A DNA stretch of 24,316 nt, taken from IMG/VR virus record IMGVR_UViG_3300028597_000068, positions 1-24,316 of that record; one strand, 5' to 3'. The notes under the pieces were generated by a model that saw only the letters and a program-made list of their open reading frames with translations, did not search any database and was not told the origin of the DNA. Both the position numbers and the translations under genes were made by a program. Positions 6,322 to 21,616 of the stretch are shown one piece after another; within the stretch, counting starts at the first letter, position 1, and each line of letters opens with the position of its first letter. Source of the stretch: a virus.

Positions 6322-6352
6322 GTGTCTCCTGTGCTTAATTGGGTCGTGAGTG
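6322..6352 (-). promoter_or_regulatory. Repeated pre-gene element, copy a
   Basis: Minus strand: CACTCACGACCCAATTAAGC, then ACAGGAGACAC, just before ATG 6318. It aligns without gaps over 32 columns with 9691-9722 and 12131-12162. GTCTCCT and ATTGGGTCG (plus-strand sense) are invariant in all three. Confidence 0.65.
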
Positions 6353-6455: not shown

Positions 6456-7277
6456 TCATGACGCAGGACCTGAGACAGGACCTCTGCCGTCAGGAACGCC
6501 GAGTATCCTCGCGATCTCGGCCTTGCTGTGAAACTTCGGGTCACGTTTCGTGCACACGTCGCGGCATGCTTTACCGACCAATTGTAGTTTTGTGCGAATT
6601 TCCCCAGCTGCGTCACGCCCAGCCCTATCCGGGTCGAGCCAGATTGTGATGTCGTCTTCATGAAGTAGGAACTCCCAAAGTAACGGCAACAGCTTCGTTC
6701 CCATCAGGCACAAGGAACGAAAGCCTGCCGTTTGTATCTTGTACGCAGACAATAAGTCCTCGACCAGCACAATCCCTTGCCCACTGCCAAACACTGGCAC
6801 GCATGCTTCGCGCCCACCGGGCATCGAGAGATACTTCGCTCCCGCTGACCCGAATATCTGGCGCGCTTGCCAGTAGACGAGCGAGCCATTCACGACGACG
6901 GGTATGACAACGCGGCGAGTCGTGGGATGGTAATAGAACCCGCCTTGCGTGACTTCCGTCCTTGATAGCCCAGCCTTGAATAACCATAACCTTGCCTCCA
7001 CTGGCCACTCGTCAAGGTCATACACAGCGGGCATTGGTGGCCTCCTGTCCGCTGCAACTAATGCTTCCGCAGTCTCTTGCTCCTTTGCCTTCGCTGCCCG
7101 CTCCGCGAGGGTCGGCAGAGGTTTCCACTCAGGCGGCTGCGGGCCGCACCGGTGGCAATATGCGCTGTACTTGTTGTCGTTGTGGAACACGACGAGGCAA
7201 AGGCCCGGCCCACAATCGTGCCCGATCTTCTTGTGCCCGCCTACAGGCAGGGCCTTCGCTACGTCAATCCAGTTCAT
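6456..7277 (-). CDS. DNA primase with zinc-binding and Toprim domains
   Basis: A 273-residue primase that would make RNA primers for lagging-strand synthesis. The N-terminus has a zinc-binding-like cluster (H20, C22, C27, and CHRC at 41-44). The Toprim domain shows IVLVEDLLSAYK (169-180, catalytic E173) and ITIWLDPDRAGRDAA (210-224, D215 and D217). The start is set at ATG 7277, with AAGGA seven bases upstream and an ATGA overlap with the preceding gene; the in-frame ATG at 7295 has no ribosome binding site. There is no helicase domain: the helicase is a separate gene downstream, as in phiKMV-like phages and unlike T7 gp4. Confidence 0.92.
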   Translation of the reverse strand: MNWIDVAKALPVGGHKKIGHDCGPGLCLVVFHNDNKYSAYCHRCGPQPPEWKPLPTLAERAAKAKEQETAEALVAADRRPPMPAVYDLDEWPVEARLWLFKAGLSRTEVTQGGFYYHPTTRRVVIPVVVNGSLVYWQARQIFGSAGAKYLSMPGGREACVPVFGSGQGIVLVEDLLSAYKIQTAGFRSLCLMGTKLLPLLWEFLLHEDDITIWLDPDRAGRDAAGEIRTKLQLVGKACRDVCTKRDPKFHSKAEIARILGVPDGRGPVSGPAS

Positions 7278-7498
7278 CGCTTGGTCCTTCGCCATAGGGA
7301 TAGATCAGCGTCGAGGTAAGCATCGCTGCCACGAACGGAGATACCGAAGGTGCCCTTGGTGATCTCGAACAGTGACCGCGCCCACGCATTCTTGCAAAGT
7401 GCGGAACGCGCACGCTTGTACGTCATCCCATAGAGCTTCCAGCCTTTCGAGTACAGCCTGCTTAGCTGCTCTGCACTCGCTGGCAGTCGCACGGTCAC
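7274..7498 (-). CDS. Small hypothetical protein upstream of primase
   Basis: A 74-residue basic protein with GTG start at 7498, overlapping the stop of the dioxygenase gene as GTGA and overlapping the primase start as ATGA. The sequence is Arg/Lys-rich with a helical N-terminal half (SAEQLSRLYSKGWKLYGM) and no motif I can name. The tight coupling on both sides suggests it is made with the dioxygenase and primase. A DNA-binding or accessory role is possible but unsupported. Confidence 0.72.
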   Translation of the reverse strand: MTVRLPASAEQLSRLYSKGWKLYGMTYKRARSALCKNAWARSLFEITKGTFGISVRGSDAYLDADLSLWRRTKR

Positions 7499-8163
7499 AG
7501 CTTGCTCCAGAACACGAGTAGGTCTCGCTGTCCTTCTGTGATCTCGGCTCCGCAGTGCAGGGTACTACGTCCCAAGAACAGGAGGGCATGCCCTGTAGGC
7601 AATGGAGGCACAAACAAGGGACGACCGTCGACGAAGAGCTTTGTGCCTCCGCCCGTGTGCCTGCTCCCGAGGTTGATAACTGCGGTACAATCGCTGTCTT
7701 CGTCACGATGCCAGTTCCCCTTGCTGGTGTTCTCCGGCGTGTAGCGTGTGAGCTGGATGCTCGTGACCTCCTCCGGCTCCAGCCTGTACAGAATCTGGAA
7801 CAGCGGCGCGAGCACCATCTCCCATACTGCCATGCACTCGGCGTGAGTCGGCGGGTGCTTGTGTGCCAGCACGATCTCAGGGATTTGGAACTCAGGTTCC
7901 TCGTCCACGTTAGGATCGTAGCCCCACACATCACCGGCGTTCACCAGATTGGCACACGCCGGACCATTCAGTACCGGGACGCTATACACGCCCGGCGCCC
8001 ACTTCTTGATGCAGCGTCGAAGCGCCAGCCCATCGGACCAGTTGGCCCACCCAAGGTGCCGGGACAGGATGAACTCCCCGCCCAGCTCCTTAGCGGCCTC
8101 GGCCATGCGGGCCAGCGTGCACAGGAAGGGTTGAATCTCCCCGTGCAATGCTGGCTGCGTCAT
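7495..8163 (-). CDS. 2-oxoglutarate/Fe(II)-dependent dioxygenase
   Basis: A 222-residue protein whose C-terminal half has the 2OG-Fe(II) oxygenase signature: iron ligands H152 and D154 in NWHRDEDSD, distal ligand H203 in STLHCGAE, and R213 ten residues later in GQRDLLVFW, the usual 2-oxoglutarate-binding position. Between them, INLGSRHTGGGTKLFVDG and the LPTGHALLFLGR turn match the double-stranded beta-helix fold of prolyl-hydroxylase/AlkB-like enzymes. The substrate cannot be read from sequence: protein hydroxylation, repair of alkylated DNA or base modification are all possible. ATG 8163 has AGGTG six bases upstream. It is coupled by GTGA to a small gene and then to primase, which hints at a nucleic acid-related role. 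Confidence 0.85.
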   Translation of the reverse strand: MTQPALHGEIQPFLCTLARMAEAAKELGGEFILSRHLGWANWSDGLALRRCIKKWAPGVYSVPVLNGPACANLVNAGDVWGYDPNVDEEPEFQIPEIVLAHKHPPTHAECMAVWEMVLAPLFQILYRLEPEEVTSIQLTRYTPENTSKGNWHRDEDSDCTAVINLGSRHTGGGTKLFVDGRPLFVPPLPTGHALLFLGRSTLHCGAEITEGQRDLLVFWSKL

Positions 8164-9129: not shown

Positions 9130-9687
9130 TTAGAGGACGATGCGCTGGGCAGCGACTGGCTTGACGATCTTGAGGCCGGGGCCGATTGGCATGATGTGGA
9201 AGACTTGACCGGCCTCACGGCTGGCCATGTGCTCTTGAATGCGCTTGGCCTCTTCCAGAGAGCGATAGATGACTTTTGGTGGCATGGAGCTGGCCGGGTT
9301 CCACAGCACGAAGCCGCGCTTCTCGCCTGCGGCCTTCAGCACTACGCTCTCGATCAGCGCCGGTGCGGTGCTCTTACGCTGCTCCAGCAGGTTGTAACGC
9401 TGCACCAGTGCATCGTGGCGGGTAGTCAGCGCAGTCAGCTTGCCATACAGCTCGGAGTTCTTGGCGCGTTCTTGGTCCAGCTCTTGGCAGGCTGCGGCCA
9501 ACATGCGCTTGGCGTCTTCGAGCGCAGTGCTCTCGGCACCGGCGAAGCTCTCCTTGATCGCGGCGAGCACGTCGGGATGTTCGAGGATCGCGGCGAGCTG
9601 CTTGCCCTTCAGCTCGTTGAACTTGCCGTGCTTCGTCTGGCGCAGGCACACGGTCTGGATGTCGGGAGCTTGATATTGTTTGGTCAC
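9130..9687 (-). CDS. Internal-start product of the 287-residue frame (185 residues)
   Basis: GTG 9687 lies in frame inside the longer ORF and is preceded by AGGAGAC at the end of the repeated 32-base element (9691-9722), the same arrangement used to start genes at 6318 and 12127. The product is mostly helical, with a likely coiled coil around the segment ACQELDQERAKNSELYGKLT, and ends with a beta-rich region (RGFVLWNP, IMPIGPGLKIVKPV). This may be the original gene, with the longer ORF resulting from loss of a stop codon in the upstream gene. Both products could be made. Confidence 0.6.
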   Translation of the reverse strand: MTKQYQAPDIQTVCLRQTKHGKFNELKGKQLAAILEHPDVLAAIKESFAGAESTALEDAKRMLAAACQELDQERAKNSELYGKLTALTTRHDALVQRYNLLEQRKSTAPALIESVVLKAAGEKRGFVLWNPASSMPPKVIYRSLEEAKRIQEHMASREAGQVFHIMPIGPGLKIVKPVAAQRIVL

Positions 9688-9993
9688 GCTTGCGTCTCCT
9701 GCTTGTGATTGGGTCGTGAGTGAGAAGAACACGGCACCGAGGCGGGCGAGGACAGCCTCGGAAATGCCAGTCGTATCGTGGTCGAAACGAGAGGCTTTGG
9801 TGTAACGCACGACATAAGGGGAGTTCCCTTGCTCGTGCGGACCTTCTGGATCTAGATAGCACTTTACTTCTAGCCCGTACAACGGGTGCTCCCTTCCGTG
9901 AGCAGTAACTACCGCGAAGGTCCAAGGCCCGAGGGATCCTGAGTTATCAGAAAGCCGGACCTTTACAGCTTGCCCTACATTCGCGTGTGTCAT
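9130..9993 (-). CDS. Hypothetical protein, 287 residues, possible two-gene fusion
   Basis: The frame opens at ATG 9993, overlapping the stop of the upstream gene as ATGA. Residues 1-92 form a small beta-rich domain (VGQAVKVRLSDNSGSLGPWT near the N-terminus). Residues 93-102 are the translation of a repeated intergenic element found elsewhere outside genes or at gene ends. From residue 103 on, the frame equals the 185-residue internal-start product, with a long helical/coiled-coil part (about 140-215). I do not recognise a family. The long form is supported by the ATGA overlap; the repeated element in the middle suggests two formerly separate genes. Confidence 0.6.
   Translation of the reverse strand: MTHANVGQAVKVRLSDNSGSLGPWTFAVVTAHGREHPLYGLEVKCYLDPEGPHEQGNSPYVVRYTKASRFDHDTTGISEAVLARLGAVFFSLTTQSQAGDASVTKQYQAPDIQTVCLRQTKHGKFNELKGKQLAAILEHPDVLAAIKESFAGAESTALEDAKRMLAAACQELDQERAKNSELYGKLTALTTRHDALVQRYNLLEQRKSTAPALIESVVLKAAGEKRGFVLWNPASSMPPKVIYRSLEEAKRIQEHMASREAGQVFHIMPIGPGLKIVKPVAAQRIVL
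9691..9724 (-). promoter_or_regulatory. Repeated pre-gene element, copy b (inside an ORF)
   Basis: Minus strand: CTCACTCACGACCCAATCAC, then AAGCAGGAGACGC, just before GTG 9687. Unlike the other copies it lies inside a continuous reading frame. Confidence 0.65.
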
Positions 9994-10471: not shown

Positions 10472-10866
10472 TGTGCTTGTTCCTTGGCTGCCTGTAGCAG
10501 CATGTTGAGGTCGCCTGTGATCCACGCTTCAGGATCTATGTGGGCGACTAGTTCAGCCACGGTAGGATCGAAGACGCACTGGTTAGAGTCTGCATGCACG
10601 AGGTGCTCAGGCACCTCATATACGGCTAGTTTGTAACCACGAGTGGCCGCACTGATACGAGCGTGCTCATCCCACCAATTGTTGGCCTGCTCTACGGATA
10701 TGAACCCGTACTTATAATGCCCCGGATTCAGGCCCGGATGATCGAACTCAGGCTGGTAGCCCAGTCCGTAGCTCATGCCCGGCTGCTCGTTGCTGCTATC
10801 CGGGTGCAGCGACTTGTAAGGCCCGCGCCCTGTGCTTGGGTGCTCCAGTCGCATTACTGTGCGCAT
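10273..10866 (-). CDS. Hypothetical protein, 197 residues
   Basis: ATG 10866 has GGAGGAA six bases upstream and overlaps the last codons of the kinase gene. The N-terminal 125 residues look like a normal globular domain (segments such as GHYKYGFISVEQANNWWDEH and DPEAWITGDLNMLLQAAKEQ). A Ser/Thr/Pro/Ala-rich linker (about 130-155) then leads to a helical C-terminal segment (GIALEVWNETRERYEELV). The last 66 codons overlap the 71-residue ORF in a different frame. No family recognised. Confidence 0.65.
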   Translation of the reverse strand: MRTVMRLEHPSTGRGPYKSLHPDSSNEQPGMSYGLGYQPEFDHPGLNPGHYKYGFISVEQANNWWDEHARISAATRGYKLAVYEVPEHLVHADSNQCVFDPTVAELVAHIDPEAWITGDLNMLLQAAKEQAQCAPSTAQSSPSAVTSTTPAPRLLSGIALEVWNETRERYEELVMPLRARFSASAPNIQQIPRSRGQ

Positions 10867-11543
10867 AATGCTTCCTCCATGCGAGGGTGAGGCACGTCGA
10901 TCAATGGCTTCTCGTCATACATGCCAGCGATAGGATCAGTGATGACCCACTGATCGCCATCCTTTAGTGCGTTACCAGCGTGCATGTACAGCTCGCCGGA
11001 TGCGCCCAACCCACTGTCCTTTAGGAACTGCTTGAAGCGACGGAGTTGGCGGCGCTCTTCACGCGGTAGCTTGCGCTGGGCAAAGAATGCCTCGGACTTC
11101 TCCCAGTCAAACACGTCTGTCTTAGCCTGAAACGGCCACTCATCCAAGAACCGTTGATCCTGCCATACAGCATCGTGGCCCCATGGATTCCCGTATTCAG
11201 GCAGCACGCACCAGAAGCAGCCGCCCTGCCCTTCCTTTCCACCATACAGGAATACTTGAGGCATCCAGCGCTCACGGCGCTTGGCATGCACGACGGAGCG
11301 AATCCACTCCGGGTACCCGTCGTGTGCACTGCGGCAGAGCTTCAGCACAAGGCCGGGGAAGTTGCGCAGACGCAGAGCGGTACCGTAGTGCCCCATGCCC
11401 AGCAGGTCCACGGGCAGGAACTTGCAGACCTCTGAGGTCATAGCAAAGGTATTGGAGGTGATCCAATCGGCTACGTTCTGGCACTCGAATTGCAAGCGCC
11501 CGATGGTCATTGTGTCCAGCAGGGATTTCGAATTGTATTGCAT
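10854..11543 (-). CDS. Protein kinase, T7 gp0.7 kinase-domain-like
   Basis: A 229-residue protein with a minimal Ser/Thr kinase pattern: glycine loop LLGMGHYGTA (48-57), probable ATP lysine K68 in GLVLKLC, a catalytic-loop equivalent YMHAGNALKDG (186-196) and a metal-binding Asp in VITDPIAG (D203). T7 gp0.7, as I recall it, has the same order and spelling (GNGHFSAAY, VIKVG, DMHSGN, YITDP), so this is probably an early kinase that phosphorylates host transcription or translation proteins. It is shorter than gp0.7 (359 residues) and ends soon after the kinase domain, so the C-terminal host-shutoff domain is absent. ATG 11543 has AGGAGA upstream. Position in the early region fits. Confidence 0.82.
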   Translation of the reverse strand: MQYNSKSLLDTMTIGRLQFECQNVADWITSNTFAMTSEVCKFLPVDLLGMGHYGTALRLRNFPGLVLKLCRSAHDGYPEWIRSVVHAKRRERWMPQVFLYGGKEGQGGCFWCVLPEYGNPWGHDAVWQDQRFLDEWPFQAKTDVFDWEKSEAFFAQRKLPREERRQLRRFKQFLKDSGLGASGELYMHAGNALKDGDQWVITDPIAGMYDEKPLIDVPHPRMEEALCAQ

Positions 11544-12130: not shown

Positions 12131-12164
12131 TGTGTCTCCTATGCACAATTGGGTCGGGAGTGAG
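12131..12164 (-). promoter_or_regulatory. Repeated pre-gene element, copy c
   Basis: Minus strand: CTCACTCCCGACCCAATTGT, then GCATAGGAGACAC, just before ATG 12127 of the acetyltransferase. It begins six bases after the stop of the exported-protein gene. Confidence 0.65.
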
Positions 12165-14520: not shown

Positions 14521-14547
14521 TTCTCTTGTACTATAGGCACCCAATTA
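14521..14547 (-). promoter_or_regulatory. Phage RNA polymerase-type promoter, left-end copy
   Basis: One of two identical 27-base sequences in the window, reading TAATTGGGTGCCTATAG followed by TACAAGAGAA on the minus strand. The CTATAG core with an AT-rich upstream block and a purine-rich continuation resembles promoters of T7-family polymerases (as I recall them, SP6 ATTTAGGTGACACTATAG and K11 AATTAGGGCACACTATAG). It lies just upstream of the early promoters, the position of T7 phiOL. The polymerase gene itself is outside this window. Confidence 0.7.
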
Positions 14548-19570: not shown

Positions 19571-21568
19571 TTAGGCGGATTCTAACGAGTTAATCATATT
19601 ACGGGCTATGATGGAGTGCCCATAGTCATTCGGGTGCAGCTGGTCCGTCGTATACATCAGGTTGTGCATGCCAGCGAAGACGGAGTAGTTGTCGATCATA
19701 TCGAACTGCCGGAGGCGCGCCACGCGGTAGATGATGTTGCGCACTTCCTGCATGTGGAATGGGAAGTCCGTAGGATCTTCATTCCCCGCAGGGTTTGCCG
19801 CCATGAGGATGACCTTCTTCCCAGTGAACGCCGCGTTATCGAGTAGAGCGTTGTACTTCACTTCGAAGTCATTACTGCCCCTAGGGCGTCCAGTGCTCCA
19901 TCCACGGTCGTTGGTGCCCAGCTGGACAAACACGAACATGTCAGTCCCAGTGATCGCCACCCCATCGCCGGAAGTATTACCGTCTAAGCAGTTAGCCAAG
20001 TACGACACGGTAGTAGTACCGCTCAGGCCTTGGTTAACGATGCGTACTTGACGCGGGATGCGGATAGAGGTCAGGCTAAGCAGTCGTTGACCAGCCAAGC
20101 CGTTACGGTTGGTGCGGATGGTGACTGTACCGTCCACGACATATGGGACAACGATTTCAATCTGCTGGTCGTAGTTAAACACATCGTCGACCAGTCCGTT
20201 GTTACCCGGCTGCACGCTGAGGTTCGTGATTACCGGAGTGCCGTTGACCAGAATGTCTACGAACGCATCCGTCGCACCTCCACCGCTGCACCGCAGACCC
20301 ATGATGAACTTCGTCCCAGTGAGCGGGAACGATACGCTGTGACCGTACTGTGCACCGGCTACCGTGTTGTTCAAGGACAGGATGAAGCCGGAAGGAGAGT
20401 TATTAGTCTGGAGATCGACCGCAGCCTGCGAGGCCCCGATGGTTTGCACATCAAAGCGGCCATATCTGGGATACATCAGCTCGATGTTCTGATATAGCAC
20501 AGTAGACTCGCCTGCCGGGCTGGCTGGCCAGTTGCTTACTATCTCTAAGAATCCGTCGCCTTTCTTGTAGTTATCCCGGATATAGCGCTTGAACTGGTTA
20601 ACGAACGTCGGCGCACCGTACATTGCTCGGATATCAGAGAGAGTATGGTCGCTAGGAGGGAACCCTGTACCCGGACTGGTGCCCGTAGCACCAACACCCC
20701 AAGTGATGGAGTCCCCGATGAAAACGATACTAAGGAACTGGCAGAACGTGTCGCACAGGCGGACCTTGAGGTCACGCAGCTGACCGCCGAAAGTATGAAA
20801 CTTAGGCATCACGCTAACAGCCGAGTTAAGCGGGATCGCCGGCTTGTTGAAGCCGTTAATTACGAATACCCCGTTGACATAGGTGTTACCAGTAGGCTCC
20901 GCAGTTACCCTCACTCGTTTGTTCCCGAGGTTGACGATCTGACCTCGGACGTTAGCCTCGAACGCGGTGAACGCGGCAGTGTCATCCGTGATCCCGTCAC
21001 CCTTGGCATTGTAAGGCGGGCTAAACGGGCCATTGGTGATTGTGGACAGCTGATTCGCCGTGGCCTGCGCGATACTCAGAGCCAACTCTGCCTGTGCCTT
21101 AACCTCGGCTAGCTCCTCCAGTGCGATGCCGCCTAGATCCCTCGCAAACTCCTGTGCCTCTAGAGCCAGCAAGTAGGAGGTTTCGGCGGTGTCCTTGGTC
21201 TCCTGTGCCATGTACAGCACTTGCCTGATTGCCAGATCGAGGTCCCGCTCCGACACAGACTGGAGGTTCTTGAAATCTACCAAGGCATACAGGTCTTGTG
21301 TTTCTCGGTAGACCCACAGCTCGGCGTCAGCTGGGATGTTGGCTTGGGTCTGGAAAGTCAGGGCGTTGACCTGAGTCAGTCCGACAGGAGTCTCGACCCG
21401 CTCGCTGGTGGCAGTGGCGGGCTGGACGATTTTAGCCTTGACATCCTCGACATTTAGGTACGGCGCCGGGTTGCCGGGCAAGTCATTCTGGTACCCGGCA
21501 AAGTCGATCTCGACTTGCATGATGCTGCCGGTCCCGGCGAACACGTTTGTGGCTAGGTAGTCGGCCAT
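19571..21568 (-). CDS. Tail fibre/spike with SGNH hydrolase domain
   Basis: A 665-residue receptor-binding protein. Residues 1-150 resemble the T7 gp17 tail-attachment domain (ELWVYRETQDLYALVDFK, then a helical stretch with QVLYMAQETKDTAETSYL). A PYNAKGDGITDDTAAF motif (about 195-210) is the start often seen in phage spike proteins with a pectate-lyase-like fold. From about 275 an SGNH/GDSL hydrolase follows: FIGDSITWG (Ser, about 281), QLGTNDRG (about 549) and DQLHPNDYGH (Asp and His, about 641-644). It would bind and possibly deacetylate surface polysaccharide. ATG 21568 has GGAG upstream; an in-frame TTG lies in the promoter and is rejected. Confidence 0.9.
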   Translation of the reverse strand: MADYLATNVFAGTGSIMQVEIDFAGYQNDLPGNPAPYLNVEDVKAKIVQPATATSERVETPVGLTQVNALTFQTQANIPADAELWVYRETQDLYALVDFKNLQSVSERDLDLAIRQVLYMAQETKDTAETSYLLALEAQEFARDLGGIALEELAEVKAQAELALSIAQATANQLSTITNGPFSPPYNAKGDGITDDTAAFTAFEANVRGQIVNLGNKRVRVTAEPTGNTYVNGVFVINGFNKPAIPLNSAVSVMPKFHTFGGQLRDLKVRLCDTFCQFLSIVFIGDSITWGVGATGTSPGTGFPPSDHTLSDIRAMYGAPTFVNQFKRYIRDNYKKGDGFLEIVSNWPASPAGESTVLYQNIELMYPRYGRFDVQTIGASQAAVDLQTNNSPSGFILSLNNTVAGAQYGHSVSFPLTGTKFIMGLRCSGGGATDAFVDILVNGTPVITNLSVQPGNNGLVDDVFNYDQQIEIVVPYVVDGTVTIRTNRNGLAGQRLLSLTSIRIPRQVRIVNQGLSGTTTVSYLANCLDGNTSGDGVAITGTDMFVFVQLGTNDRGWSTGRPRGSNDFEVKYNALLDNAAFTGKKVILMAANPAGNEDPTDFPFHMQEVRNIIYRVARLRQFDMIDNYSVFAGMHNLMYTTDQLHPNDYGHSIIARNMINSLESA

Positions 21569-21589
21569 CTCGATACTCCATGAATTTCG

Positions 21590-21616
21590 TTCTCTTGTAC
21601 TATAGGCACCCAATTA
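21590..21616 (-). promoter_or_regulatory. Phage RNA polymerase-type promoter before the tail fibre
   Basis: Identical over 27 bases to the copy at 14521-14547, with TAATTGGGTGCCTATAG as its core. It lies 22 bases upstream of the fibre start, the position of T7 promoter phi17. Transcription from it would cover fibre, holin, terminases and lysis genes. Confidence 0.72.

Follow-up and report, generated by a model that had tools for sequence, protein, structure and literature searches.

Here we describe the predicted Fe(II)/2-oxoglutarate (2OG) oxygenase of a small Pseudomonas virus, represented by a 24.3-kb record (24,316 nucleotides, analysed in full and hereafter referred to as the window). 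The protein looks like an ordinary representative of an oxygenase family that is widespread in Pseudomonas phages. The interest lies in this family being nearly confined to such phages, which belong to several genera and carry the gene at several genome positions. That near-restriction is directly supported, as are the assignment to the sequence family, the fold predicted for the protein, the conservation of the iron and 2OG site and the operon position. Our preferred reading, to which we assign a probability of roughly 0.55, is that the enzyme is a lysyl hydroxylase-like member of the lysyl/prolyl hydroxylase class, made before or during replication, that modifies a host protein for takeover or counter-defence.

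The oxygenase gene and its active site

The genes of the window lie on the minus strand, ordered as T7-type late genes (terminase, tail spike and lysozyme), a gap, early genes and then replication genes (primase, DnaB-type helicase, DNA polymerase and exonuclease). The closest relatives by DNA are the Pseudomonas phages Ppr_SeaD1, Luke-3, Eisa9, PollyC and Bf7; those with a taxonomy line, for example PollyC and Bf7, are Autographiviridae. The sequence-only reading had placed a 2OG-Fe(II) dioxygenase at 7274–8163, an interval that spans the oxygenase plus a 74-residue open reading frame (ORF); the oxygenase itself runs from an ATG at 8163 to a TGA at 7495 (Table 1).

Table 1. Positions of the oxygenase gene, its neighbours and the repeat copies within the window
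Feature	Position	Strand	Basis
DNA primase (TOPRIM)	6456–7277	-	PHROG 47 (E = 2e-31), Pfam Toprim_2
ATGA stop-start overlap, 74-residue ORF to primase (start ATG 7277)	7274–7277	-	
Basic ORF, 74 residues	7274–7498	-	pI 10.5
GTGA stop-start overlap, oxygenase to 74-residue ORF	7495–7498	-	
2OG-Fe(II) oxygenase, 222 residues, lysyl hydroxylase-like predicted fold	7495–8163	-	PHROG 61, invariant residues, AlphaFold2, Foldseek
Codons H203 (7555–7557, distal iron ligand) to R213 (7525–7527, 2OG-binding arginine)	7525–7557	-	
HxD motif codons, H152 (7708–7710) and D154 (7702–7704)	7702–7710	-	
Gene directly upstream of oxygenase, 161 residues	8166–8651	-	PHROG 24184 (E = 3e-36)
29-nt repeat copies	12134–12162, 9694–9722, 6324–6352	-	3 copies versus 0 expected

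The gene is real: a chance ORF is excluded because the protein matches PHROG 61 (2OG-Fe(II) oxygenase) at E = 2e-21 and a homologue is present in 192 of 50,697 phage records (tblastn). Single-sequence searches of Pfam, the PDB and IMG/VR with the oxygenase returned nothing useful, and alignments were required. In an alignment of 53 proteins, the catalytic set claimed earlier (H152, D154, H203 and R213) is 100% conserved, so that the loss of active-site residues among homologues, named beforehand as grounds for abandoning the assignment, is not seen. Also invariant are N85, E88, E96, Q137, Y141, W151, S157, T160 and the GGGT segment at 171–174, and the window copy deviates at just four of the columns that are at least 85% conserved, with catalytic positions unaffected. 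The protein has the HxD...H triad and the distal Arg/Lys for 2OG that characterize the Fe(II)/2OG superfamily. Structure prediction, the check that had been proposed for the double-stranded β-helix, gave an AlphaFold2 model (built with the family alignment; pLDDT 92, pTM 0.90) with the expected strands and this fold. The model has 453 PDB matches at E ≤ 0.001, the best 50 of which are 2OG oxygenases or homologues thereof. On the strength of alignment and model, the protein is predicted to be a complete and catalytically competent Fe(II)/2OG oxygenase.

A 29-nt element (CACTCACGACCCAAT...AGGAGAC), which includes a ribosome-binding site just before start codons, has related copies in loci L002, L005, L013 and L028, and may represent a promoter of the phage RNA polymerase combined with a ribosome-binding site. 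Were it a promoter, the oxygenase would lie in a transcription unit starting at 9722. Its copies also suggest a start near 9683 for the 287-residue ORF at 9130–9993 and, from about 6319 onwards, a small gene that had not been listed. Separately, an identical 27-nt repeat (TAATTGGGTGCCTATAGTACAAGAGAA; 14521–14547 and 21590–21616, minus strand), of which one copy precedes the tail spike gene and the other falls in the non-coding gap, is probably a late phage promoter. The tail spike (19571–21613, minus strand) combines a T7 tail-fibre N terminus with a GDSL esterase domain (Pfam E = 6e-16), the target of which is likely to be an acetylated surface polysaccharide. A 229-residue early protein (10854–11543, minus strand) weakly matches the PHROG of the T7-type host-transcription-inhibiting protein kinase (E = 1e-5).

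Relation to lysyl hydroxylases

Among solved structures, the lysyl hydroxylases of the PLOD/L230 type are the best relation by both profile and fold. When compared with PDB sequences, the family profile matched LH3 (E = 3.5e-16) and mimivirus L230 (E = 8.9e-11), and all other matches were above 0.3, including prolyl 4-hydroxylase (E = 0.34) and a TET-like match of 32 residues only (E = 0.67). In a Foldseek search of the PDB, the first 15 matches were L230 and LH3 (E = 5e-12 to 5e-10), with a TM score of about 0.7 (query length) and 17–20% identity, values too distant for lysine specificity to be transferred. PiuC, PHD2 and then the Pseudomonas putida prolyl-4-hydroxylase (PDB 4j25) ranked next, and the top match in a viral structure library was a Megavirus procollagen-lysine 5-dioxygenase. 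Nine of 11 family members gave weak matches to the Pfam OGFOD2-like family.

LH3 (PLOD3) and L230 (PDB 6ax6, 6ax7 and 9nev) have the HxD...H...R layout and a GGG motif in common with the phage oxygenase. However, LH3 carries glycosyltransferase domains, whereas the phage enzyme stands alone; its iron motif is WHxDxDS rather than the HHDSS of lysyl hydroxylases, and, in contrast to the setting of procollagen lysyl hydroxylase, its host is bacterial and without collagen. The prolyl-4-hydroxylase 4j25 and PiuC are Pseudomonas host enzymes of the same superfamily and fold, but their structure match is weaker than that of the lysyl hydroxylases, with no sequence-profile match at E ≤ 1. Among viral enzymes, PHROG 61 gathers oxygenases of cyanophages, pelagiphages and others, from which the present family differs by its own invariant N..E....QIPE segment; the cyanophage members are more distant by structure. 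Phage-encoded 2OG-Fe(II) oxygenases have been reported as auxiliary genes (PMC9599517, PMC10580990).

Two other identities were rejected: AlkB was absent from the profile matches to PDB sequences at E ≤ 1, the TET-like match was confined to the short stretch given above, and neither AlkB nor TET/JBP appeared among the best 50 of the 453 PDB structure matches. One PADLOC hit (E = 1.6e-5 over 81 positions), to a 2OG model grouped with CRISPR-associated proteins, reflects general similarity of the 2OG domain and was not read as a sign of a defence role. Given the structure and profile matches to lysyl and prolyl hydroxylases and the acidity of the family (median pI 5.4), a protein side chain appears a likelier substrate than DNA. 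Within this superfamily, lysyl hydroxylase affinity favours a protein substrate without proving it, and fold similarity does not fix the substrate, since PiuC and the small-molecule oxygenases SnoK and PolD are also among the structure matches listed.

Distribution and genomic context

The sequence-only reading took the phage group to be one not usually described with such enzymes. This proved wrong: for many of the homologues in the 192 phage records, the existing annotation already reads 2OG-Fe(II) oxygenase or hydroxylase, and 188 of these records are named for Pseudomonas (one spelled Psuedomonas). A helicase homologue is found in 843 records, including 238 from Klebsiella and 87 from Vibrio; no Klebsiella or Vibrio record appears by name in the oxygenase counts. 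Of 51 best helicase relatives, 50 are individually listed with the oxygenase, and the remaining one, Providencia PSTNGR1, fits the single Providencia record in the oxygenase count. The Pseudomonas restriction rests on a one-query tblastn and may be somewhat overstated; part of it could stem from phages exchanging genes within a common pool of hosts, or from how sensitive that search was. No cellular family of the oxygenase was found at the pattern stringency used, because those Pseudomonas genome matches that have sufficient flanking sequence are accompanied by phage genes (RNA polymerase, for example), and the Planctomycetaceae match is a 62,952-base contig with similar contigs in the viral collection. 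In three Pseudomonas genome contigs of 120–262 kb (L074, L076 and L078), the oxygenase adjoins a T7-type RNA polymerase, and these are possibly T7-like prophages. In a 100-kb viral contig (L026, 3473–4522), the oxygenase ORF is 350 residues long, and ~110 of these form an N-terminal extension to which no Pfam family matches. In Salmonella phage Phylax-28 (L010, 705–1948), the label BRO family protein is attached to the oxygenase and the label prolyl 4-hydroxylase alpha subunit to the gene upstream of it; the two annotations look swapped.

The oxygenase occurs in at least three contexts among related phages. It precedes the primase in Bifseptvirus/Pollyceevirus-type phages, with Bf7 and PollyC-type phages sharing the position seen in the window; in phages related to Ghunavirus, and in Ghunavirus itself, it precedes the T7-type RNA polymerase, in the early region away from the replication genes; and in Ittyvirus and contigs like it the surroundings are nuclease and recombination genes, with RuvC, HNH or DUF1064 nuclease genes adjoining. 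In most Bifseptvirus/Pollyceevirus-type relatives, a homologue of the 161-residue gene lies immediately upstream with overlapping or abutting codons, whereas T7-type and Ittyvirus-like relatives have a different upstream gene and retain the oxygenase without it. A conserved upstream partner as substrate was therefore rejected family-wide.

The sequence-only reading had coupled the oxygenase to the basic 74-residue protein and to the primase through GTGA and ATGA overlaps. The overlaps are real and the small protein is indeed basic, with the ATGA overlap holding if the primase starts at ATG 7277; this is the better-supported start, with AAGGA seven bases upstream, as the longest primase ORF reaches 7295 without an AAGGA-type site before it. 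The coupling itself was not borne out. A search of 50,697 phage records at E ≤ 1 gave no match to the 74-residue protein, nor was one present in related loci, and this protein was rejected as a partner of the oxygenase; the primase is not a neighbour in the RNA polymerase-proximal and Ittyvirus-like contexts.

The window copy is unusually divergent for its genome, as judged from sequence comparisons. Relative to SeaD1, the helicase is 88% identical, the primase 70% and the oxygenase 45%, whereas in another pair with equal helicase identity the oxygenase is 66% identical. Family members in Bf7, PollyC, Ppr_SeaD1, Andromeda and Ghunavirus relatives are all ≤45% identical to the window copy, which sits on a long branch of the tree without a supported sister. 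This divergence fits either a replacement acquired from a distant phage or an accelerated rate of change; genes of host interaction may often diverge likewise.

Proposed role

In our preferred reading, the oxygenase would be expressed together with the primase, as part of one operon, either before phage DNA replication or while it is under way. It would belong to the lysyl/prolyl hydroxylase class, with the procollagen lysyl hydroxylase catalytic domain as its nearest relation, and would act by hydroxylating a host protein important to Pseudomonas phages at a side chain, probably that of lysine or proline, as a step in takeover or counter-defence. Here we infer activity, a protein substrate and its host origin, expression timing and benefit to the phage. 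A bolder version is possible but doubtful: that Pseudomonas phages of several genera, carrying the gene at several genome positions, use a lysyl hydroxylase-like enzyme to hydroxylate a single protein specific to Pseudomonas hosts, and thereby take over the cell or disarm a defence. If true, it would be, to our knowledge, the first known peptidyl hydroxylation serving takeover or counter-defence in a bacterial virus.

The enzyme might instead be an auxiliary metabolic one that hydroxylates a small molecule, such as a free amino acid, or lowers 2OG or iron. In favour of this, PHROG 61 is classed with the auxiliary metabolic genes, the structure matches listed include small-molecule oxygenases as well as the iron-uptake factor PiuC, and there are weak matches to the Fe2+-dependent dioxygenase PRK05467. 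However, the best matches are clearly peptide hydroxylases, no conserved pathway partner adjoins the oxygenase, and phages of such size carry few metabolic genes; we consider this role unlikely.

Oxidation of a DNA or RNA base, whether to shield phage DNA from host nucleases, for repair in the manner of AlkB or to modify tRNA or other RNA, seems less probable again. The operon with replication genes, the nuclease neighbours in Ittyvirus-like phages and the presence of nucleic-acid oxygenases in the same superfamily speak for it, as does an AlkB-like enzyme reported in jumbo phages (PMC7824862). Against it are the missing AlkB and TET/JBP folds among the best 50 structure matches, the profile that points to lysyl hydroxylases, the acidity of the family, the early-region position in T7-type relatives and the fact that no base-hypermodification partner was seen among the genes examined. 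Of the substrates offered by the sequence-only reading, a replication or host protein is thus favoured, whereas DNA or nucleotide modification and alkylation repair are disfavoured, because of the peptidyl-lysine and peptidyl-proline hydroxylase matches and the acidic family. A phage-protein substrate (the upstream 161-residue protein, the primase or a virion protein) is improbable: the abutting 161-residue gene favours it in most Bifseptvirus/Pollyceevirus-type relatives, but T7-type and Ittyvirus-like relatives dispense with that gene, and a host-genus distribution is not obviously expected for such a substrate.

No study of these Pseudomonas phage oxygenases, and no function for this one, was found in the literature searched, which covered few subscription journals. 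About 190 sequenced phages, nearly all of Pseudomonas, retain the enzyme with an intact active site at differing genome places, and a common gene with such a host-genus distribution offers a workable way towards finding a host target or a defence. The affinity to lysyl hydroxylases makes a 16-dalton change in a protein the first place to look, before modified DNA bases.
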